Shown: positions 14,599 through 62,040 of the stretch, one piece after another | Layout of the letters: the number at the start of each line of letters is the position of its first letter | Numbering within the stretch: position 1 is the stretch's first letter | Origin: Planctomycetota bacterium | GTDB lineage: Bacteria; Planctomycetota; Planctomycetia; Pirellulales; PLA5 | Length of the DNA: 64,000 nucleotides | Reading direction: 5' to 3' | NCBI GenBank assembly: GCA_003576845.1 | Contig: QEVJ01000036.1 | Span: 1-64,000 of the forward strand | Notes under the pieces: generated by a model | Database searches by the model: none | What the model was told of the DNA's origin: nothing | Seen by the model: only the letters and a program-made list of their open reading frames with translations | Program-made: the position numbers and the translations under genes

Positions 14599-14712
14599 AA
14601 GTCGTCCGTACGCGCGACGGCTATCCACGAGCGTGCAGGTTTGCGCTGTGTAGGCGGGCGATTTACTCGCACCGCGCCGTCGCCGCATGTTCTTGATTTG
14701 CGCGGGACAAGG

Positions 14713-16485
14713 ATGTCCAAGTTCATTCTGGTCGATCACTCGCTCAAGGGCGTCGGCGGGCATCACTACGAGTATGCCGCGCACGTGCTATCGGCCGCAG
14801 AACGGGCGGGATACGCACCGGTGCTCGCGACGCATCGTCGATTCCGGCCGGGTCGCGACTATTCGCGGTATTGGCCGACCTGGCCGATCTTTCGATACAC
14901 GACGTACTCGAAATTCACCGTGTATCGGAGCCAGCCGCATCGCGACGCTAGCGGCGCGGGGCGAATCGCCGGGCGGTGGAATCTTAGTGGCGTCGGCGAG
15001 CGCGTGAAGGACTTTCTGTATCGCCGCGGACGCGAGAAGCGCGTGGCGGCAATGGCCGCGGGACTTGCGCGGCTCTTTGCCAGGGAGTCAGTCGCGGCGG
15101 GCGATCAGGTATTCGTGCCGACGCTGTCGGAGCTCGATCTCGAAGGCGTGGTGCGGTTTCTAGAAGCGACGCCGAGCACGCAAGTCGCCGACTGGCACTT
15201 GCAGTTTCACTACAACATTTTCGACGGCCGCGAACCGGAGTTCGCCGCGCAGGCGGGCAAGCTCGACGTAATGCGCGAGGCGTTTGCGGCGGCGCTGGCG
15301 CGGACACCCAATCATCGGCTGCACTTCTACAACACGACCGAACAGCTTGCGGCGCAGTACGAGCGGATGGGATTGGCGGCGTTTCATGCGCTGCCGTATC
15401 CGGTCAACGAGGCGCTCGCGCGGCGCGACGAGGACGGGGCGGCGGATGCATCCGGCGAGATTGTGGCGACGCCGCGGCCGCTGCGGATCGCGTGCTTGGG
15501 CGCGATTCGGCCGGAGAAGGGCGCGGCGGAGTTGGCTGGCGTGGTCGAGGCCTTGTGGGACAGCCACTTCCTGCCGGGGCGATGCCAACTCGTCGTGCAG
15601 TCGAACAAGCGGCGGTTTCGGCTACCGCTGCCGGTGGACGACGCAGACGAACTGCCCGAGGGCGTCGAGCCGGTGGTTTATGCACCGCATCCGTTGCCGA
15701 TGGAGACGTATGTCGAATTGATCCGCGCCGCGGACATCGGCCTGTTGCTTTACGACAGTCGGCGGTATTACGCGCGGTGCAGCGGCGTGTTGGTGGAGCT
15801 GTTGAGCGTGGGGACGCCCGTGATTGCCACGGCTGGTTGTTGGATGGCCGAGCAACTTGCCGAGGCGAACTTCGCGCATCTCGACGGCGCTCTGCGCGAG
15901 TTGAAGCGGGTGCGGTGCATCGATATGGGCGGCGTGCAAGTTCCCGGAGGATCGCGGGACGTGGTGACCGATGTCGAAGTCCCGCGGACGGCGACGCACG
16001 CGATGTGTTCGTTCCGGTGGCGGTTTCCGAGCGAGGCGGGAACGTATGTGCGGGTGTCGCTCGAATCTCCGTGCGACGAGGAGCAGGAATCGACCGGGCC
16101 GTCGTTCATCCTCGGGAGACGAGCGGGAGACGGTCTCGTGCGCGCGATGTTTCCCGTCGATCCGAGCGCGAATCGGGTGCGCTTGCGGTGGGAGAACGCT
16201 TACGACAGTGGGCCGATTGCGCTCGCCGACGTGCAAATTGATCTATTATCGGCCCAACATCTGCCGGGAGCGACGTATCCATTCGGCGCGGTGGGGCTCG
16301 TCGCGGCGGACGATTCGCAAGTCGCCCCGCTCGTCGACGACATGGTCGCGCATTGGCTGCACTACCGGCGGACCGCGCTCGAGTTCGCGCAAGGCTGGTC
16401 GGCATTTCACAACGCGGATCGGATTGTGGCGGAGTTGGCACAACGCACGCGTACGTCCACGTCGCATGGCCTGAGCGCGGCGTAA
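14713..16485 (+). CDS. Large GT-B family glycosyltransferase
   Basis: A 590-aa protein with ATG 14713 after a GGACAAGG ribosome site. The N-terminal half begins 'FILVDHSLKGVGGHHYEYA', a glycine/histidine acceptor loop. Around residues 255-330 comes the GT-B hinge 'PLRIACLGAIRPEKGAAEL'. The donor-binding motif is 'LIRAADIGLLLYDSRRYYAR' plus 'CSGVLVELLSVGTPVIAT' (E-x7-E-type region). About 170 residues beyond the second Rossmann domain contain beta-rich sequence ('MCSFRWRFPSEAGTYVRVSL'), an uncommon insertion or lectin-like module within the glycosyltransferase. No signal peptide. Donor and acceptor unknown. It stands alone, not in the polysaccharide cassette at 1.9-5.5 kb. Confidence 0.8.
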   Translation: MSKFILVDHSLKGVGGHHYEYAAHVLSAAERAGYAPVLATHRRFRPGRDYSRYWPTWPIFRYTTYSKFTVYRSQPHRDASGAGRIAGRWNLSGVGERVKDFLYRRGREKRVAAMAAGLARLFARESVAAGDQVFVPTLSELDLEGVVRFLEATPSTQVADWHLQFHYNIFDGREPEFAAQAGKLDVMREAFAAALARTPNHRLHFYNTTEQLAAQYERMGLAAFHALPYPVNEALARRDEDGAADASGEIVATPRPLRIACLGAIRPEKGAAELAGVVEALWDSHFLPGRCQLVVQSNKRRFRLPLPVDDADELPEGVEPVVYAPHPLPMETYVELIRAADIGLLLYDSRRYYARCSGVLVELLSVGTPVIATAGCWMAEQLAEANFAHLDGALRELKRVRCIDMGGVQVPGGSRDVVTDVEVPRTATHAMCSFRWRFPSEAGTYVRVSLESPCDEEQESTGPSFILGRRAGDGLVRAMFPVDPSANRVRLRWENAYDSGPIALADVQIDLLSAQHLPGATYPFGAVGLVAADDSQVAPLVDDMVAHWLHYRRTALEFAQGWSAFHNADRIVAELAQRTRTSTSHGLSAA

Positions 16486-16494
16486 GCGCGATCG

Positions 16495-18906
16495 CTACGT
16501 CGCACCTGTACCGACCCCAACGTCGACCGTTTCGCGGCGTGGGCGACCGACGATGAGGTCGGTTTCGCGCGACACGGTCCAGCCGGTTTTCAGGCCGACG
16601 ACGAACCAGCCGAGGCCGACGATTCCCAGCGCAAAGATCGTGTCGCCGACGACGCGCAGCCAGCGGAGCACGTGCATCGTGTCGGTTTGGAGGAAGTCGG
16701 CGGAGCGGGCGTACCACAGGCCGTGCTCGACGCTTGCCCAGGTCTGCATGAGGCCGACGGGGAGCAGCGAAAGGAGAACCATCAGGGCCAGGCCGACGTT
16801 GATGGACCAGAAGCTGGCCGAGAGAACGCCGGTTTTCCATTTGTTGTGGGCCGCCAATCCCTTGAGGCAGAACAGCGTGAGTCCGATGCCGAGCATGCCG
16901 TAGACGCCGAACAGGGCGGTATGGCCGTGGACGGGCGTCGTGTTGAGGCCCTGCATGTAGTAGAGGGCAATCGGCGGGTTGATGAGGAAGCCGAACAAGC
17001 CGGCGCCGACGAGGTTCCAGAACGCGACCGCGACGAAGAAGTAGATCGGCCAGCGATAGGCGGCGACCCATTCGCGGGCCCGCGCCAGCGTAAGGTTCTC
17101 GTAGGCCTCGAAGCCGATGAGCACGAGCGGCACGACTTCGAGCGCGCTGAAGGTCGCGCCGAGGGCGAGCACGGGCGTGGGCGTGCCCGTGAAGTAAAGG
17201 TGATGAAACGTGCCGATGATGCCGCCGAATAGGAAAATCGTGCAGGAGAAGAGCACGGCGGACGTGGCGGTGGCGGTGCGGAGGAGGCCCATCCGCGTGA
17301 ACAGGAAGGCGATGACGACGGTGGCGAAGACTTCGAAAAAGCCCTCGACCCACAGGTGGACGACCCACCACCGCCAGTATTCGGCGATGGCGAGGTTGGT
17401 CTGGCGTTGCCACATGATGCCGGCGGCGTAGAAGACGGCGATGGCGGCGGAAGCGATGACGAAGAGAGCGAGGAGGTGTTTGTGCTCGCCGGGCTGCCGG
17501 AAGGCGGGCCACAGCGCCCGACACATCAAGCCGAGCCACAGGAAGAGGCCAACGAGCAGAAAGAGTTGCCAAAATCGGCCGAGATCGACGTATTCGTAGC
17601 CCTGGTGTCCGAACCAGAAGTTGGCTTCCAGGCCCATTGTTTGGCGGGTGGCGTACCAGGTTCCGAAGAGCGACCCGACGACGATGACGAGCAGACACAC
17701 GAAGAGGAAGTTGACGCCGGCGCTCTGCCAGCGCGGTTCGTAGCCGGAGACGGCGGGCGCGATGAATAGACCGGTGGCGAGCCAGGCGGTGGCAATCCAA
17801 AAGATCGCCAACTGCGTATGCCAGGTGCGGGTGACCGAATAGGGAAGCCACTCGGCGAGCGGGATGCCGTAGAATCCTCCGCCTTCGACGCCGTAATGTG
17901 CGGTCACGGCGCCGAGTCCGACTTGGGCGACGATTAGCGCGACGACGACCCAGAAATATTTGAGCGTGGCCTTCATCGAGGGCGTGGGCGCCAAAGCCAA
18001 GAGCGGGTCGCGTTCCGGAAGGTCGGGTTGCTCTTCGTCCTTGTGCTTGAGCACGGCATAGTACCAGGCCAATGCGCCGATGCCGGCGAGCAGCAAGACG
18101 AAGCTCACGACGGACCAGACGACGATCGACCCGCTCGGTTCGTTGCCGATGAGCCGTTCGGCGGGCCAGTTGTTCGTGTAGGTTACCGCGGCGGTTTGCG
18201 GCGGTTCGCGGCCTCCGGCGGCGGTTTGCTCGGACATCGCGGCGAAGTCTTGGGGGCGTTCGGTTGCGCAGGCCCAAGAGGCCCAGAAGAAGAATGCGTT
18301 GAGCCGGCGTTGGCGTTCGGGGTCGCGGATCGTGTTGGCCGGAATTGCATAGGCGGCTCTCAATTCGGCGGGCGACATTCCGCCGTCGGCAACGTGGCGG
18401 AGGTCATCGGGGAACTGTTCGGCGCTTCCAAAGATGGCCGCGTAGTACCTGGCGATGGCTTCGATCGCGCGGGCGCGGTCGGGCGAAACGGTAATGACGT
18501 TTCGCTTTGCGTCGAAGGTGTTGGTGCGCATCTCGGTTTTGAGCCGGGTCGTGAGCGTCGCCTGGTCGACTTCGCGGAGGGCATTGAAGGGCTTTCCGTG
18601 CGATTGTTTCGACCAGAAGTCCAGCAGCCAGACGCACTCGCGGTGGAGCCAGTCGGCGGACCAGTCGGGGGCGACGTACGCGCCGTGGCCCCAGATGCTG
18701 CCGAGTTGCTGTCCGCCCATGGACTGCCAGACGTTTTGGCCGTCCTTGATTTCCTGGCCGGTAAACAAGGTCCTGGCGTCCGAGGTGACGACCTGGTCGG
18801 GTACCGGGGGGGCCTGGCGGTATATTTCGGTGCCGTAATAGCCGAGCACCGCGAAAGAAGCGGCGGTAACAACGGCAAAACCGAGCCAAAGCTTGCGGTA
18901 CTGCAT
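16495..18906 (-). CDS. norB: Quinol-dependent nitric oxide reductase (qNOR)
   Basis: Integral-membrane haem-copper-oxidase relative that reduces 2 NO to N2O with electrons from quinol. At 803 aa it has the long form: one N-terminal TM helix, a periplasmic domain of about 220 residues ('GQEIKDGQNVWQSMGG', 'GHGAYVAPDWSADWLHRE'), then about 13 helices. Expected ligands are visible: 'HLWVEGFFE' with His517 and Glu521 (non-haem FeB site), 'HHLYFTGTP' with His568/His569, and 'HGHTALFGVYGMLG' for haem binding. No CxxCH haem-c motif and no norC neighbour, which supports the quinol type. Ribosome site GGAGG about 7 bp upstream of ATG 18906. It is divergent from an Rrf2 regulator that probably controls it. 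Confidence 0.95.
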   Translation of the reverse strand: MQYRKLWLGFAVVTAASFAVLGYYGTEIYRQAPPVPDQVVTSDARTLFTGQEIKDGQNVWQSMGGQQLGSIWGHGAYVAPDWSADWLHRECVWLLDFWSKQSHGKPFNALREVDQATLTTRLKTEMRTNTFDAKRNVITVSPDRARAIEAIARYYAAIFGSAEQFPDDLRHVADGGMSPAELRAAYAIPANTIRDPERQRRLNAFFFWASWACATERPQDFAAMSEQTAAGGREPPQTAAVTYTNNWPAERLIGNEPSGSIVVWSVVSFVLLLAGIGALAWYYAVLKHKDEEQPDLPERDPLLALAPTPSMKATLKYFWVVVALIVAQVGLGAVTAHYGVEGGGFYGIPLAEWLPYSVTRTWHTQLAIFWIATAWLATGLFIAPAVSGYEPRWQSAGVNFLFVCLLVIVVGSLFGTWYATRQTMGLEANFWFGHQGYEYVDLGRFWQLFLLVGLFLWLGLMCRALWPAFRQPGEHKHLLALFVIASAAIAVFYAAGIMWQRQTNLAIAEYWRWWVVHLWVEGFFEVFATVVIAFLFTRMGLLRTATATSAVLFSCTIFLFGGIIGTFHHLYFTGTPTPVLALGATFSALEVVPLVLIGFEAYENLTLARAREWVAAYRWPIYFFVAVAFWNLVGAGLFGFLINPPIALYYMQGLNTTPVHGHTALFGVYGMLGIGLTLFCLKGLAAHNKWKTGVLSASFWSINVGLALMVLLSLLPVGLMQTWASVEHGLWYARSADFLQTDTMHVLRWLRVVGDTIFALGIVGLGWFVVGLKTGWTVSRETDLIVGRPRRETVDVGVGTGAT

Positions 18907-18982: not shown

Positions 18983-19015
18983 GTCAAGGTGTAGAATTTG
19001 ATCGGAGGATTTTTT

Positions 19016-19447
19016 GTGCTGCCCAAGACTGCCGAATACGCCCTGCGAGCGACCGTATGGCTAGGGCGAACCTCAGACCGGCCGCAATCGGCGGACCAGC
19101 TTGCCAAGGCGATCCGAGTTCCGCGGCGCTATCTGCACAAGGTGTTGCAGGACTTGGCGAAGGCGGGGCTCGTTCGGTCGCAATCCGGACCGGGCGGCGG
19201 TTATTCGTTGGACCGTTCGGCTGGGGACATTACGATCCTCGACGTGGTCAACGCGGTCGGACCGATCGAGCGGATCGAGGCGTGCCCGTTGGGCCTCAAA
19301 TCGCACACGAGCCTTTGCCCCCTGCATCGAGAACTCGACCGGGCATACGCGTCGGTGCAACAGGCGTTCTCGCGGATTACGGTGGCCGACATCTTGAACG
19401 CGCCGGGCGACATCCCGGCGCTGGTTGACATCGCGGCGAAGCCGTGA
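19016..19447 (+). CDS. Rrf2-family transcriptional regulator (NsrR-like)
   Basis: A 143-aa winged-helix regulator, probably sensing NO or redox through a cluster. The start is GTG 19016, seven bases after a perfect GGAGG (19004-19008); an in-frame TTG at 18998 is less likely. Fold features: 'LPKTAEYALRATVWL', 'SADQLAKAIRVPRRYLHKVL' (recognition helix) and 'GPGGGYSLDR' (wing). Cysteine ligands are only two: Cys90 and Cys101 in 'EACPLGLKSHTSLCPLH'. NsrR normally has three (C-x4-C-x5-C), so the middle one is missing; the second ligand may be another residue, or the cluster may be absent. The divergent arrangement with norB makes norB the probable target. Confidence 0.9.
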   Translation: MLPKTAEYALRATVWLGRTSDRPQSADQLAKAIRVPRRYLHKVLQDLAKAGLVRSQSGPGGGYSLDRSAGDITILDVVNAVGPIERIEACPLGLKSHTSLCPLHRELDRAYASVQQAFSRITVADILNAPGDIPALVDIAAKP

Positions 19448-19483: not shown

Positions 19484-20308
19484 TCACTCGGGCGCCACCG
19501 TTACCAGTTCTGCCGAGACGGCCTCTACCTGGCTGGCTGTGATCGACGGTTGCTCTTCGGCATAGGCGATGAGCAGGGCGAGGTCGCAGAGGCGGTTAAT
19601 CTCGCGGGGGACGCCGTGGGTGAGGTGGAACACCGTCTCCATTGCGGCGGAGTCGAAGATCTGGCGTTTCGCTTCCGCGGCAGTGAGGCGGTGGCTGATA
19701 TAGCTGATCGTTTCTTCGAGGTTGAACGGACGCAGGAGGCACTTCACGCCGAGGCGCTGTTCGAGGCCGGGCATGCGGTCAAGGGTGGGAAGGATGCCCG
19801 TTTGACCGGCGATGAGGAGCGTGAGGCCGGGTTGGCCTTCCGTTTCGAAGTTGAGCAGCAGGCGGAGCGTTTCGAAGCCATCGCGGCCCGAGAGAAGGTG
19901 CGATTCGTCGACGACGACGACGGCATGGTGACCGGCGCGGGTGTTGTCGGCGAGGATTTGCTTGATCGTACGAACGCTTTGTTGAAGCGAGTCGGTCGCG
20001 GCGGTCGTGCCGGCGGCTGCCGCGAGTTCGCCAGCGATGTAGGCGAGCAATTGATCGGCCGGCATCTGCGGAAACACCAGATGCACGAAGGGTGCGATCG
20101 CGTCCGGGGCCTGGCGACGGAGCGATTCGACGAGCAGCGTTTTGCCCAGGCCGGCCGCGCCGCTTAAGAGCACGGCGCCGCGGCGGTTCTCAATGCCGTA
20201 GCGAAGTTTGAGCAGCGCGCCCTGATGCACCTCGCTCGGATAGTACGAGCGGGCGTCGAAGGCGTTCTCGAACGGCTTGCGGGTTAGTTGCCAGTAGGAT
20301 TCGTACAT
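19484..20308 (-). CDS. ExeA/GspA-like AAA ATPase
   Basis: A 274-aa ATPase starting MYESYWQLTRKPFENAFD. That opening is typical of the ExeA/GspA and exosortase-linked XrtA-type ATPases. Walker A is 'GAAGLGKTLL' (about residue 51), Walker B 'VVVVDESHLL', sensor region 'LLLNFETEG' and 'LIAGQ'. The C-terminal 'GVPREINRLCDLALLIAYAE' is the helical lid. In other bacteria these proteins help polysaccharide or secretin assembly. It is the last gene of a three-gene minus-strand operon, 121 bp after the CpsD/MinD-like ATPase. That gap contains a 60-bp dispersed hairpin repeat, so the two genes may be differently expressed. Confidence 0.85.
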   Translation of the reverse strand: MYESYWQLTRKPFENAFDARSYYPSEVHQGALLKLRYGIENRRGAVLLSGAAGLGKTLLVESLRRQAPDAIAPFVHLVFPQMPADQLLAYIAGELAAAAGTTAATDSLQQSVRTIKQILADNTRAGHHAVVVVDESHLLSGRDGFETLRLLLNFETEGQPGLTLLIAGQTGILPTLDRMPGLEQRLGVKCLLRPFNLEETISYISHRLTAAEAKRQIFDSAAMETVFHLTHGVPREINRLCDLALLIAYAEEQPSITASQVEAVSAELVTVAPE

Positions 20309-20369: not shown

Positions 20370-20430
20370 GTCAGGTCGGCGCGAATTGGCGTTGTTCGCG
20401 ATGTTGCGTCGTTTGCCGCTTGGCCTGACC
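20370..20430. repeat. 60-bp GTCAGG..CCTGAC hairpin repeat, copy 1
   Basis: Left end GTCAGGTCGGCGCG, right end GCCGCTTGGCCTGACC, about 61 bp in all. The outer 8 bases pair (one mismatch in this copy). It begins exactly at the stop codon of the CpsD/MinD-like gene (TAG, plus-strand 20430-20432) and lies in the gap before the ExeA-like gene. Copies 2 and 3 are at 28379 and 55455. Confidence 0.75.
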
Positions 20431-21851
20431 TACGGTTTTGCTGGTTTGGTTTGCGATTCGGCGACGAAGTTTTCGACGATGCCGATGGCGGGTAGCGTGG
20501 CAGCGGTTCGCACGTGCGGGCGATTTGCAGGCCGAGCCGCGTCGATCCGCGCGTCGCGCACGACGATGCCGCAGTCGACCGCGTCTTCCGGCGCGTGGGC
20601 GAGCCACGGTTCGGCGACTTCGGCGAGCGGGCCACCGTCGACGATCACGAGCGCGAAGTGTTGGCGGAGGATTGCTAGATCGGCCGCGATCCGCGCGGCT
20701 CGCGGCGTGCTGATGCCGAACGCCGCATGACGCAGCGGCAGCAGCGCTACGCCATCGGCGAGTGAACTAATCATCGCCGCGTTCGGTTCGGTTTGCGCTT
20801 CGAGCGTGTCGTCCCAGCCATATTCGACGGCGACGCCCAGCGACCTGGCGAGCGCCGGCTTGGCAAAGTCGGCGTCGACGAGCGCGACGGACAGGCCGAG
20901 TTGGGCCAGACGACGCGCGGCATAGGCGGCCAGCGTGGTCGTTCCCGCGCCGCGGCGTTCGCCGGCAAACATCACGACGCCGCGTCCGATGCTGCTCGAA
21001 TCGACGAGTTCGTCGATCAGCGTCGTCAGGGCGGTGGTTGCACGCGCGCCGAGACCGCCGACGACTTCGGGCCAGCGGAAGGCGTCGACTTCATAACCGG
21101 TGCGGAGCGGCGGCGATGCAGGAGCGGACATGCGGCGATAGGCGACGCCGTCGATCCGCGGGGCGGAAGCGGTGTTCGGTCCGGCAAAACTCTGCGTCGG
21201 CGCGCTGGGCGTTGTGGCCGGCGCGAACGACGCGAGAGCCGGTTCGCTTGGGACTTCAAATTCGGCGAGGTCGTCGGCGTGGTCCTCGCTCGCCTCGATC
21301 AACGCGTCGGCCACGGTCGAGAATTGGACGGTACACGCGCGATGGCACAGGTCGCCGGCGGTCAACCGCGGCGGTTGCCTACGGGTTTCGACCGGCTTGG
21401 CGGGTGCAGTCGGCTTGCTGATCGGCGGTTTCATTTCGGCGGACGCGGTGTCGACGGAAAAGGAATCGGCCTGAAACGCGGGAAGCGGCGTTATGGCCGG
21501 TTGATTCGAGCCGGCGGCGGTCGCGGCGCGTTTTACCGGCGCTCGGCGCGGTTTTCGCGGCGCGGCCGCTTCCGTCGGCGAGGATGCGTCGATATGCGGT
21601 CGCGGCGCGGCCGACGTGTTTGCAGCCGGCGCGGTCTCGGCGCGGTGCTTCGGGGCGTTATGCATACTCGGCGCGGTGCACGTGTCGAACGCAAACGAAC
21701 CGGCGTCGACCACGATGGGCGCGGCGGAAATCAACGGCAATCCGCTCGCCGCGGCCGGTTCTGGACTCGCGGGCGCGGCGTTCGGCGCGGCGCTGGGGCG
21801 AATGCCGACGTGGCCGTAAGCTTTGATGAACGATTGATCGAGTTTGGCCAT
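20430..21851 (-). CDS. CpsD/MinD-like ATPase with abnormal P-loop
   Basis: A 473-aa protein. The first 250 residues are Ala/Pro/Thr-rich and probably unstructured; the ATPase-like domain is about residues 270-470. The Walker-A position reads 'GERRGAGTTTLAAYAARRLA', with threonine where the essential lysine of a P-loop stands; the Walker-A' strand 'VALVDADFAKPALARSLG' and the Walker-B-like 'LVIVDGGPL' are normal. As I recall, this form is seen in planctomycete paralogues with 'GEGRTT', so it may bind ATP weakly or be regulatory. There is no tyrosine-rich tail as in BY-kinases. It follows the upstream gene by 17 bp. Role in capsule or surface-polymer export is inferred from its ExeA-like neighbour. 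Confidence 0.75.
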   Translation of the reverse strand: MAKLDQSFIKAYGHVGIRPSAAPNAAPASPEPAAASGLPLISAAPIVVDAGSFAFDTCTAPSMHNAPKHRAETAPAANTSAAPRPHIDASSPTEAAAPRKPRRAPVKRAATAAGSNQPAITPLPAFQADSFSVDTASAEMKPPISKPTAPAKPVETRRQPPRLTAGDLCHRACTVQFSTVADALIEASEDHADDLAEFEVPSEPALASFAPATTPSAPTQSFAGPNTASAPRIDGVAYRRMSAPASPPLRTGYEVDAFRWPEVVGGLGARATTALTTLIDELVDSSSIGRGVVMFAGERRGAGTTTLAAYAARRLAQLGLSVALVDADFAKPALARSLGVAVEYGWDDTLEAQTEPNAAMISSLADGVALLPLRHAAFGISTPRAARIAADLAILRQHFALVIVDGGPLAEVAEPWLAHAPEDAVDCGIVVRDARIDAARPANRPHVRTAATLPAIGIVENFVAESQTKPAKP

Positions 21852-21868: not shown

Positions 21869-23053
21869 CTATCGGCGGTAGGATTCGGGAAGGGGTTGCC
21901 GCTCGGCTTGTGCTCGGTCGCGGCTGAATTCGTAGGCCCGGCGGCGATTGTTCTCGTAAGCGCGGCGTTCGGCTTCGAGTTGCTCGCTCGTCGGTTGCGG
22001 CGCGATGCGGCCGTCGGCGATGCGCGGATCGGCGGAGCGGCCGTCGCTATAAGCGCGGTCGTCGATCGGGCGATTATCGGCCGTGCGCGTCGGCGTTGGG
22101 GCGACGAGGGTGTCGGCGTAGTGCGGGTTGGTCTGGACCGGTGGATAGGCGGCCGACTCGGTCGGTTGCGGGCGCTCGGCCCAGCGACGGGGCATGTCGG
22201 ACGGAGGTTGCGGGGCTCCGTCGCTCGGCGAGGCATCAATCGGCATGGAGTCGAATGCCGGGTCGCGCGGTTGGCGGCCGTCGGCGTAGTTCCCGCGTTG
22301 CGAATTGTCGTAGGGCGGCGCGGCGTCGTAGGGTTCCTTGTGGGGCGCGATCGGGCGAACCGTGGCGCTCGCGACCGTGCCGTCGCGTTGGGCTACGCGC
22401 GGCCAACCGTCGTCGAAGCTCGAACGCGCGCTCTGGCCGCGGGCGGCGTCTTGGATCTCGCGAATCGTGGGGCTATCGCCGCGGGCCGCGTCGCGAGCGA
22501 GGCGTACCGCTTCGTCGGCGGTTGCGTCGACGCTGTTCGGCTCAGTACGCCACGTTGGTTCTGAGTTTGCTGGTTTCTTTGTTTCGGCGGCAGGGTCTGC
22601 GGCCGCTTGCAAGCGGGGCGATGCGTCTTCTTGATGCCAGGCGGAATTCGGCGCCGGCTCGACGTCCTTATCGTTGCTGCCCGTGCCGAACATCCAGATC
22701 GACATGACAATCGAGGCCACGATCGTGCCGAGCTTGACGATCGGCGGGAGCGTGACGATCCAGGTCCAACACGTGGCGAAGTCGAGACCAGCGAGCGTCG
22801 CGGCAATTTTTAGATAGGCCACGCGGAACTTCGGCCGCGGCAGCGTCCAGGCCGGTTTCCACGAAGCCTTGGGCGTGGGACTCGGAGCTTCCGCCAATGC
22901 GGCTTCCGGTCGCAGGTCGGGCACTTTCGCCACGATCAACAGCGGCTCGCGGTGAGCGGGAGGCAATGTGGCATCAGGCGGCGCGTCTGGATTGACCACT
23001 GCCCGCGGCGTAACCAGGGCCAAGGCCGACGACATGCGTGTTCCACGGTTCAT
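21869..23053 (-). CDS. One-TM Pro/Asp-rich protein, export operon
   Basis: A 394-aa protein if started at MNRGTRMSSALAL (23053); Met at 23035 is an alternative. One hydrophobic helix is near residues 105-128 ('TLPPIVKLGTIVASIVMSIW'). After it the chain is low-complexity: many Pro, Asp and Arg, with short motifs 'ADGRQPRDPAFD', 'DDRAYSDGRSADPR', 'EAERRAYENNRRRAYEFSRD' (charged helix at the C-terminus). It is the first gene of the operon with the CpsD/MinD-like and ExeA-like ATPases. The topology (short cytoplasmic N-terminus, long extracytoplasmic or cytoplasmic tail) would suit a chain-length or scaffolding partner; this is a guess from context. No known family recognised. Confidence 0.65.
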   Translation of the reverse strand: MNRGTRMSSALALVTPRAVVNPDAPPDATLPPAHREPLLIVAKVPDLRPEAALAEAPSPTPKASWKPAWTLPRPKFRVAYLKIAATLAGLDFATCWTWIVTLPPIVKLGTIVASIVMSIWMFGTGSNDKDVEPAPNSAWHQEDASPRLQAAADPAAETKKPANSEPTWRTEPNSVDATADEAVRLARDAARGDSPTIREIQDAARGQSARSSFDDGWPRVAQRDGTVASATVRPIAPHKEPYDAAPPYDNSQRGNYADGRQPRDPAFDSMPIDASPSDGAPQPPSDMPRRWAERPQPTESAAYPPVQTNPHYADTLVAPTPTRTADNRPIDDRAYSDGRSADPRIADGRIAPQPTSEQLEAERRAYENNRRRAYEFSRDRAQAERQPLPESYRR

Positions 23054-23349: not shown

Positions 23350-27063
<3,714 letters not shown>

Positions 27064-60234: not shown

Positions 60235-62040
60235 CTAATTGCGGCGTACTTGGCGCGATTGTCGCGCGCTATGCCGCATCGAATCCGACAAGACTTCGAG
60301 CACTTCGGCATTCGGGCGGTTGACTTTGGTCTCCGCCTCGAAGTGTTTACGGCGCGACGTTGCAGTCAACGTCAGGCTTTCTCGCCGTTGATCGACGACA
60401 GTATCAACCGCCGCCGCAATTTGCGCGCTCGCGACATGCGGCGCGACGCGTGGACGCTGCACCGCAGTACCTGCCATGTCGCCGGTCAGTCCGTCGGTGG
60501 TCAAGTCGAACGAATCTCGGACGAAAAGAATGTCGCGGATTGTCACTTCACCATCGCGGTCCGCGTCCCTGCGGTCTGGCGCTCCTTGAAGAAAACGCGG
60601 AGCCCGAATCATCGCCGCGACGTCGCCTAAGTCAACCGATCCGTCCTCATTTACGTCGGCGTCGGCGAACTGAGTCTCGGGTTCGATCTTCCACAACTCT
60701 CGTGGGCCGTATCCGTAGGGATCGCCGGCGAAAAAGTAGAGTCGGTTGCCCGCCGGAATCAATTCGAATTGAGCCGTAAAGTAATCCAAATCATCGGGGA
60801 AGAAGTCGAGAACCTTCTGAGTTCCATCCGTCGTCCCGTCGCTCGTCCACAACACCCAGCCTTCGATGCCGTGATGCGCGGTGAAGAACAGTCGGTCCCC
60901 GACTGTTACGAATTGCGGGTCGCCGACATAGTCGCCATCGCTTATGGTTGTCACGCGCTTGACGAGTCGCGTACCCTTTTGCGTGCCGTCCGTGACCCAA
61001 AGCTCTTCGCCGAAGTCCCGGAAATAAATCTCATCGCGAATCTTCGCGAGCATTGCCGCTTGGACTTTGTTCTGGCTTTCTTGGCCGTACGCATCGGCAA
61101 TGATCTCAAGCTCTTGGCCGTCGTAGCGATACAGATAGGGGTCGAGAACGAAAAGCACTGAGTCGCCGAGGCCGGTGAAGAATGGATCGCTCTCTTGCGC
61201 TGGATATGTATCGGGAATGACTACCGTTCCCTCCGCCGTTCCATCGCTCGTCCAATAGCTGCCGCGACGTCCGTAGATCGGGTCGTGAACGACATATTGA
61301 AAGTAGAGCGTGCCCGATACGCTCACCAGGCGCTCTGGTCGCTCGGAACCGGCAGAAGGACCTGTAGCATTCCCGATGGCACGAACCAATCGAGACCCGG
61401 CCGCCGTTCCATCAGTCACCCACAACTCGCTTCCATCTGCAACCGTCCTATCGACGTAGAACAGCTTGTCGCCCGCAGCCGTTAGTTGACTGGGTTCCAG
61501 CCCCGGCCAATCGGTGTCGGAGACGATCGGCGAAGTTCCCGCTTCCGTGCCGTCGCTTTGAAAGATGCGCGGACCGAGTGTCGGGTGCGTGGCGACAAAA
61601 TGGAGAGCACCATTAAACATCTCGAACGAACGCGGAGACGACGCATCCGGACCGGGAGAGATATCGGCGACGAGATATGTGCCCTGCGGCGTGCCGTCGG
61701 AGCGCCAAAGCTCCGTGCCCGAGTCACCGTCGTACGCACTAAAGTATAAAATGTCGCTTGGGCGATAAGCCGGTGTGGGCGGATATTGGTTCGTCAAAGA
61801 TTGAAAGCCGGACCGCAATAATTGCGTGCCGCCGGGGCTCCCATCGGTCGACCACAATTCAACTTCTGGTGCGGCGCCGATCCTAAAAAGCAACTTGTCG
61901 CCGGCCGTGCCGATCACGGAACAACAGCTTCCCGACTCAACGGGAAAAACCCCGACCAAAGTCGCCGTAAGCGAAAGCAGCGAACGATCTTCCAGGGTCT
62001 CGACGGCAAGGCGGCGTTTATGGCGACTCGTGCGACTCAA
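60235..62040 (-). CDS. ELWxTDGTxxGT-repeat protein with dockerin
   Basis: A 601-aa surface protein. The N-terminus has the planctomycete export motif 'RRLAVETLEDRSLLSLTA'. Then seven or so repeats of the form E-L-W-x-T/S-D-G-T-x-x-G-T ('ELWSTDGSPGGTQLLR', 'ELWRSDGTPQGTYLVAD', 'ELWVTDGTAAGSRLV', 'ELWVTDGTQKGTRLV', 'VLWTSDGTTDGTQKVL'), a beta-propeller-like fold, end near residue 450. A dockerin follows ('DADVNEDGSVDLGDVAAMIR', 'DADRDGEVTIRDILFVRDSF'). The last 90 residues are basic and low in motif. Enzymatic activity is not indicated; a substrate- or cell-binding role is likely. Confidence 0.88.
   Translation of the reverse strand: MSRTSRHKRRLAVETLEDRSLLSLTATLVGVFPVESGSCCSVIGTAGDKLLFRIGAAPEVELWSTDGSPGGTQLLRSGFQSLTNQYPPTPAYRPSDILYFSAYDGDSGTELWRSDGTPQGTYLVADISPGPDASSPRSFEMFNGALHFVATHPTLGPRIFQSDGTEAGTSPIVSDTDWPGLEPSQLTAAGDKLFYVDRTVADGSELWVTDGTAAGSRLVRAIGNATGPSAGSERPERLVSVSGTLYFQYVVHDPIYGRRGSYWTSDGTAEGTVVIPDTYPAQESDPFFTGLGDSVLFVLDPYLYRYDGQELEIIADAYGQESQNKVQAAMLAKIRDEIYFRDFGEELWVTDGTQKGTRLVKRVTTISDGDYVGDPQFVTVGDRLFFTAHHGIEGWVLWTSDGTTDGTQKVLDFFPDDLDYFTAQFELIPAGNRLYFFAGDPYGYGPRELWKIEPETQFADADVNEDGSVDLGDVAAMIRAPRFLQGAPDRRDADRDGEVTIRDILFVRDSFDLTTDGLTGDMAGTAVQRPRVAPHVASAQIAAAVDTVVDQRRESLTLTATSRRKHFEAETKVNRPNAEVLEVLSDSMRHSARQSRQVRRN

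Follow-up and report, generated by a model that had tools for sequence, protein, structure and literature searches.

A planctomycete protein family with the BY-kinase fold and without the P-loop lysine, encoded in a three-gene membrane operon: a candidate pseudokinase scaffold

The window, a stretch of 64,000 nucleotides from a Planctomycetota bacterium, contains an operon with the gene order X, F1, F0, encoding a protein with one predicted transmembrane (TM) helix (X), a protein that has the fold of bacterial tyrosine kinases (BY kinases) but no P-loop Lys (F1), and an AAA+ ATPase (F0). Divergent from X lies a gene that, going by its sequence, we take to be metH-like. The features are as follows:

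23350..27063 (+): metH-like gene, divergent from X; the ORF runs from 23227, the probable start being chosen by eye
21869..23053 (-): X, 394 aa if the start is MNRG, a start picked by agreement with locus L034
20430..21851 (-): F1, 473 aa, ATG start, with the BY-kinase fold and no P-loop Lys
21816..21851 (-): F1 N-terminal motif MAKLDQSFIKAY (family form MSxLDQAFIKAY), followed by a long low-confidence linker
20934..20963 (-): F1 P-loop GERRGAGTTT, residues 297-306; the Thr304 codon is 20940-20942
20865..20879 (-): F1 Walker A-prime VDADF, residues 325-329
20631..20648 (-): F1 Walker B VIVDGG, residues 402-407, containing Asp405
19484..20308 (-): F0, 274 aa, AAA+ ATPase of the ExeA/XrtA-associated type; its P-loop, GAAGLGKT, is intact

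F0 starts 121 nt past the F1 stop on the same strand, so that the ExeA-like ATPase placed two genes along by the first-pass annotation is in fact the next gene downstream. It matches TIGR03015 at E 1.7e-49 (168.7 bits, below the 324.5-bit cut-off). Across the family, F0 is the same-strand neighbour of F1 at 101 of 131 loci under strict spacing and at 104 under looser spacing, and GxxxxGK[TS] is present in 99 of the 101 F0 proteins of the strict-spacing set. F0 is missed under the strict rule at 30 of the 131 loci, where X-F1 mostly persists. Neither partner is obligatory for F1, since no F0 was found beside it at 27 of 131 loci under looser spacing, and no X candidate with a predicted TM helix at 14 of 131. 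Such candidates occur at the other 117 loci, with a single TM helix in 110 of them and a long, periplasmic-type tail (117/131). X of the window matches no Pfam family; a single TM helix is predicted near 22703-22759, and outside this helix the composition is biased. A Pfam scan of nine X proteins left eight without a match and gave the ninth a weak and unrelated one, and in these nine, each the protein adjacent to F1, neither Wzz nor GNVR was matched at E<=0.1; a PCP partner encoded farther away may still exist. Two patterns recur in X, namely a VLxRLPDL-like pattern on the cytoplasmic side (24 of 117, versus 0.18 expected from shuffles) and an ARLxGTI-like pattern in the C-terminal tail (45 of 117, versus 6.7 in shuffles), both derived from the very data in which they were counted; neither is present in clear form in X of the window. 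The X stop often overlaps the F1 start, with an offset of 29 nt at 12 loci, of 1 nt at 10 and of 4 nt at another 10. With the 29-nt overlap (12 of 117 X candidates), the F1 N-terminal motif shares its DNA with the X C-terminus (..NRSSIY, ..TGSGLY). The metH gene lies divergently upstream at 62 of 131 loci; 58 others have at least 3 kb of upstream sequence without metH, and 11 have too little sequence. It recurs as a neighbour, but we make no claim that it belongs to the system. At loci L172, L173 and L176, F1 lies 105-191 nt from metH, has the P-loop GEGTT or GQGTT, and apparently stands alone, no X candidate and no F0 having been found there.

In F1 of the window, Thr304 occupies the P-loop Lys position, and the Lys replacement originally read from GERRGAGTTT is confirmed in the translation. 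A same-genus genome (G001, locus L034) likewise has Thr at this position; a sequencing slip or chance as the source of Thr304 is ruled out by this agreement and by the family-wide absence of Lys. The family was collected in two steps. By a tblastn-type search, 54 of 57 relatives matched at E<=0.01, BY-kinase paralogues included. At the level of the class, 397 genomes were searched with a 30-row alignment, and 374 of them matched at 1e-12, again with paralogues included. The 131 best family loci, including the window, were aligned to the profile, and a second batch of 27 members (24 from the class-level search and three from the search of relatives) brought the family to at least 158 members, the best among the matches listed, with weaker matches left out. 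The Lys column of these 158 members reads R102 C23 A13 T9 V6 S2 G1 with two Lys; thus, 156 of 158 are devoid of Lys, in a set that was drawn with a Lys-less profile and may be slightly biased against Lys-bearing members. The loss is therefore not a quirk of the window, and homologues mostly with Lys, the outcome named beforehand as refuting it, did not appear. Thr itself is not fixed (9 of 158, Arg being commonest); the conserved trait is the absence of Lys. The first 131 members contribute R76 C23 A13 T8 V6 S2 K2 G1 and the second batch R26 T1. In contrast to the Lys column, all 158 members keep the P-loop Gly just before it, the Thr/Ser just after it and the Asp of Walker B (131 of 131 for each of the three in the first set, and without exception in the second batch too). 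Walker A-prime, initially called normal, is so in the window (VDADF) but less uniformly across the family, where the first Asp is D127 E4 in the 131 members, with Glu in two more of the second batch, and the second is Asp in 94 of 131. The two Lys-bearing members, L168 and L179, both have X beside F1, together with metH at L168 and F0 at L179, and look like true family members in which Lys was kept or regained. With BY kinases added to the tree, the position switches between Lys and non-Lys three times.

F1 is placed on the BY-kinase fold by profile, fold and tree. A profile search of solved structures retrieved VpsO (6u1q, 1e-29), CapB (4jlv, 1.1e-24), BceF, Etk and Wzc, and then MinD, and Foldseek on the F1 model likewise ranked BY kinases first (4jlv, 2.4e-9). 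A VIA fold comparison of F1 with Wzc K540M gave Z 19.6 over 209 residues at 3.1 A; BY-kinase structures in general scored Z 18-20 over about 200 residues, compared with Z 14.6 for MinD (1g3q) and about 14 for MinD, Soj and FleN structures. A plain MinD/ParA protein was accordingly rejected, its profile and fold scores being weaker than those of BY kinases. In a tree built by a quick method with a midpoint root, 131 F1 proteins and 24 BY kinases fall on the two sides of one branch (SH-aLRT 100), a rooting that leaves the derived side undefined. The Wzc-like BY kinases of the same genomes, found by a TIGR01007 search, carry GK[ST] at 30 of 32 loci, the remaining two being unparsed. EX2RX2R, the BY-kinase ring interface motif, is present in just 10 of 131 F1 proteins versus 20 of 25 local BY kinases, and a Wzc-like octamer is for this reason unsupported for F1. 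With both Lys and EX2RX2R lost, F1 as an active BY kinase was rejected. Tyr is absent from the last 40 residues in 106 of 131 F1 proteins versus 8 of 25 local BY kinases.

The AF2 model of F1 has a mean pLDDT of 69.9, with block means of 87-98 for residues 251-410 and 33-59 for the linker (residues 11-240), in agreement with the long disordered N-terminus described at first. Ahead of this linker, the N-terminal block of the window F1 (pLDDT 77) is modelled as a helix over residues 3-12. The motif MSxLDQAFIKAY occurs in 97 of 131 F1 proteins, and the linker that follows it has a median length of 167 residues (range 22-400). Position 10 of the motif is K/R in 55 of 61 aligned F1 proteins. When a 40-residue motif consensus was used as a query against the genome of the window, F1 was the sole match (E 0.4). 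F0 accompanies 88 of the 97 F1 proteins with the motif versus 16 of the 34 without it (Fisher 4.5e-7 before allowing for relatedness), an association that is not significant after relatedness is taken into account, with two independent pairs on supported branches. A tie between the motif and F0 is thus suggestive at most, and the motif itself may be regarded as docking-like.

Across the phylum, 8 of 292 genomes match F1 at E<=1e-37, seven in the order of the window and one in its class, a threshold below which more divergent F1 members would fall. The proposal that the system is particular to planctomycetes fits this distribution, all eight being in the class of the window, whereas other phyla were covered solely by a related-locus search that reached close relatives only and returned one locus, the sister. 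The surroundings of the operon are not evidently those of a polysaccharide locus. Among the gene families common to at least 3 of 21 regions, as judged by eye, none recurring beside it is a secretin or export gene, and the export system first proposed is not borne out on this count. Wza is found in 56 of 57 relatives and an exosortase in 52 of 57, so that co-occurrence with either is uninformative, both being near universal. Dependence of F1 on an active BY kinase or an exosortase was rejected, as genome G015 contains X, F1 and F0 (L053) without a match to TIGR01007 at 1e-15 or to an exosortase at 1e-6. The genome of the window has two Lys-bearing BY kinases, which are found a few kb or less from exosortases and not near F1. 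Among the surrounding ORFs, a glycosyltransferase-like one (by eye; 14641-16485, +) lies beyond F0 and also in the sister genome (L034 2942-4927); it was not used as evidence for a polysaccharide role because it does not recur in at least 3 of 21 regions. A large ORF resembling quinol-type nitric oxide reductases (16495-18906, -) is divergent from an Rrf2/NsrR-like regulator ORF (18998-19447, +), and by eye the two look like an ordinary NO-detoxification pair beside the operon. Farther away, the N-terminus of the ORF at 60235-62040 (-) reads LAVETLEDRSLLS, a motif known from extracellular planctomycete proteins.

The explanation we favour, with modest confidence, is that F1 is a non-phosphorylating, nucleotide-binding BY pseudokinase that acts as a scaffold linking X and F0 in planctomycetes. 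According to this proposal, the loss of the catalytic P-loop Lys is permanent, whereas the Gly of this loop, the Thr/Ser that coordinates Mg and the Asp residues of the Walker motifs remain, and F1 would bind Mg-nucleotide without phosphorylating, the bound state serving as a structural signal. Its ATPase-fold domain would meet the cytoplasmic part of X, as stand-alone BY kinases and pseudokinases do with their membrane partner, and the helix MSxLDQAFIKAY at its N-terminus, tethered by a flexible linker that can be as long as 400 residues, would hold the active AAA+ ATPase F0, which may thereby act at the X complex in the envelope. By analogy, a Mg site kept together with a lost Lys would most simply mean binding without phosphotransfer, given the Lys-to-Met BY kinases with ADP-Mg and the ATP-bound entry for BcsQ, whose P-loop is RGGVGTT. 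A non-hydrolysing scaffold, as suggested at the outset, is the best reading. The analysis establishes the fold, the Lys loss, the conservation of the Mg-site residues, the operon, the motif and an intact F0 P-loop; from these we infer nucleotide binding, the lack of phosphotransfer, the F1-X and F1-F0 contacts, and any role in export or envelope-polymer assembly.

Rather unlikely is a catalytically competent F1, in which Arg304, or another basic residue close by such as Arg300, would take over from Lys and support slow ATPase or kinase activity. Arg (102/158) would be a conservative swap, with some activity possible, all three Mg-site residues are retained, and the NCBIfam "KGGVGR-motif variant AAA ATPase" family matches F1 weakly (1.9e-4, below cut-off). 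Arg300 also accompanies Arg304, being present in 55 of 76 members with Arg304 and 20 of 55 without (Fisher 7e-5, relatedness uncorrected). However, 54 of 158 members, the window among them, have neither Lys nor Arg at residue 304, a position for which the tree of 131 F1 proteins requires at least 29 changes, unlike a fixed catalytic replacement. Tyr is missing from the last 25 residues in 109 of 131 F1 proteins, yet likewise in 15 of 25 local BY kinases, so that the C-terminal Tyr is no clean discriminator. Judged from conserved columns, a Lys from elsewhere that fills the gap at 304 retains a small probability, K/R10 of the N-terminal motif (K28 R27 of 61 aligned) being the only basic column near 90%. 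Clearly improbable is an F1-F0-X machine for assembling a secretin or other outer-membrane channel, in the manner of ExeA-ExeB, which assembles the type II secretin: F0 resembles ExeA and XrtA-associated ATPases, and the single-pass X, with its long tail and ARLxGTI-like C-terminal pattern taken from the same data, would suit such a role, but F0 of the window is just 274 aa, a Pfam scan matched it to no peptidoglycan-binding family, and eight of the nine X proteins scanned are without any Pfam match. A MinD/ParA-like positioning protein, marking sites of envelope growth or division instead of partnering a membrane machine, is about as improbable: the MinD, Soj and FleN matches, the location outside an evident polysaccharide locus and the constitution of G015 agree with it, but BY kinases score clearly higher by fold and far better by profile, the MinD/ParA signature-Lys position holds no conserved basic residue (R34, H24, Q18, G14 of 131), and MinD/ParA dimer chemistry needs the P-loop Lys that F1 has lost.

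The pseudokinase scaffold has several partial counterparts. EcpK of Myxococcus xanthus and HfsB of Caulobacter are stand-alone BY pseudokinases, and EcpK acts as a scaffold for its membrane partner, according to PMC12004946. As in these proteins, F1 combines the BY-kinase fold with a separate cytoplasmic location, loss of catalytic residues, possibly the lack of a Tyr-rich tail, and a proposed scaffolding role for a membrane partner. EcpK, however, is without all Walker motifs in the same account (PMC12004946), whereas in F1 little more than the Lys is gone and the Mg-site residues remain; the EcpK partner described there is a Wzz-type PCP-2 protein encoded in an exopolysaccharide cluster, whereas X has no Wzz match and the F1 locus lies elsewhere; and neither an AAA+ partner nor an N-terminal docking motif is described there for EcpK, while F1 has both the F0 neighbour and the motif. 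BcsQ of Escherichia coli cellulose secretion has the natural P-loop RGGVGTT (PMC9178275) and is represented by entry 6ybb, ATP-bound according to its title. It shares with the window F1 the SIMIBI fold and the identical natural Lys-to-Thr change, but is ParA/MinD-like with the partners BcsR and BcsE, whereas F1 is closer to BY kinases and neighbours X and F0, and scores below the BcsQ-related cut-offs (17.6 of 21.3 bits for PF06564 and 19.7 of 157.85 bits for TIGR03371). The XrtA/PEP-CTERM EPS pair of a TIGR03018 tyrosine autokinase and a TIGR03015 ATPase is the same kind of pair as F1 and F0 and supplies their best NCBIfam matches, but both proteins fall below the cut-offs (for F1, E 6.4e-5 and 22.4 bits, under 230.65), and the exosortase-near kinases in the genome of the window are the Lys-bearing ones, not F1. 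The Lys-to-Met mutant CapA1B2(K55M) still carries ADP-Mg (PMC3795738), and MgADP structure entries exist for Wzc(K540M), going by their titles. These mutants have lost the same residue as F1 and bind ADP-Mg without phosphorylation; they form octamers via EX2RX2R, a motif that F1 mostly does not have.

As an unlikely extension, F1, X and F0 might form a trans-envelope machine of new composition, in which a nucleotide-locked pseudokinase hands the active motor F0, caught by the N-terminal MSxLDQAFIKAY peptide, to the single-pass X, whose periplasmic tail would end in a docking motif; K/R10, the near-invariant basic residue of the peptide, might then reach like a finger into the active site of F0 or, standing in for the lost Lys, into that of F1.

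On the favoured reading, F1 would work like EcpK and BcsQ, and it differs from both in defining ways. The family, with at least 158 sequences, represents a natural set in which one catalytic P-loop residue has been lost and the Mg site kept, so that the binding of nucleotide and the catalytic step can be told apart within the BY-kinase fold, and its Lys-bearing members L168 and L179 offer a natural comparison for catalysis that was kept or regained. These features suggest that phosphorylation-independent control by pseudokinases reaches beyond Wzz partners. Going by open PMC papers, the three-gene membrane operon X-F1-F0 is undescribed, and the bacteria that have it are a group in which little is understood of the biology of the envelope.
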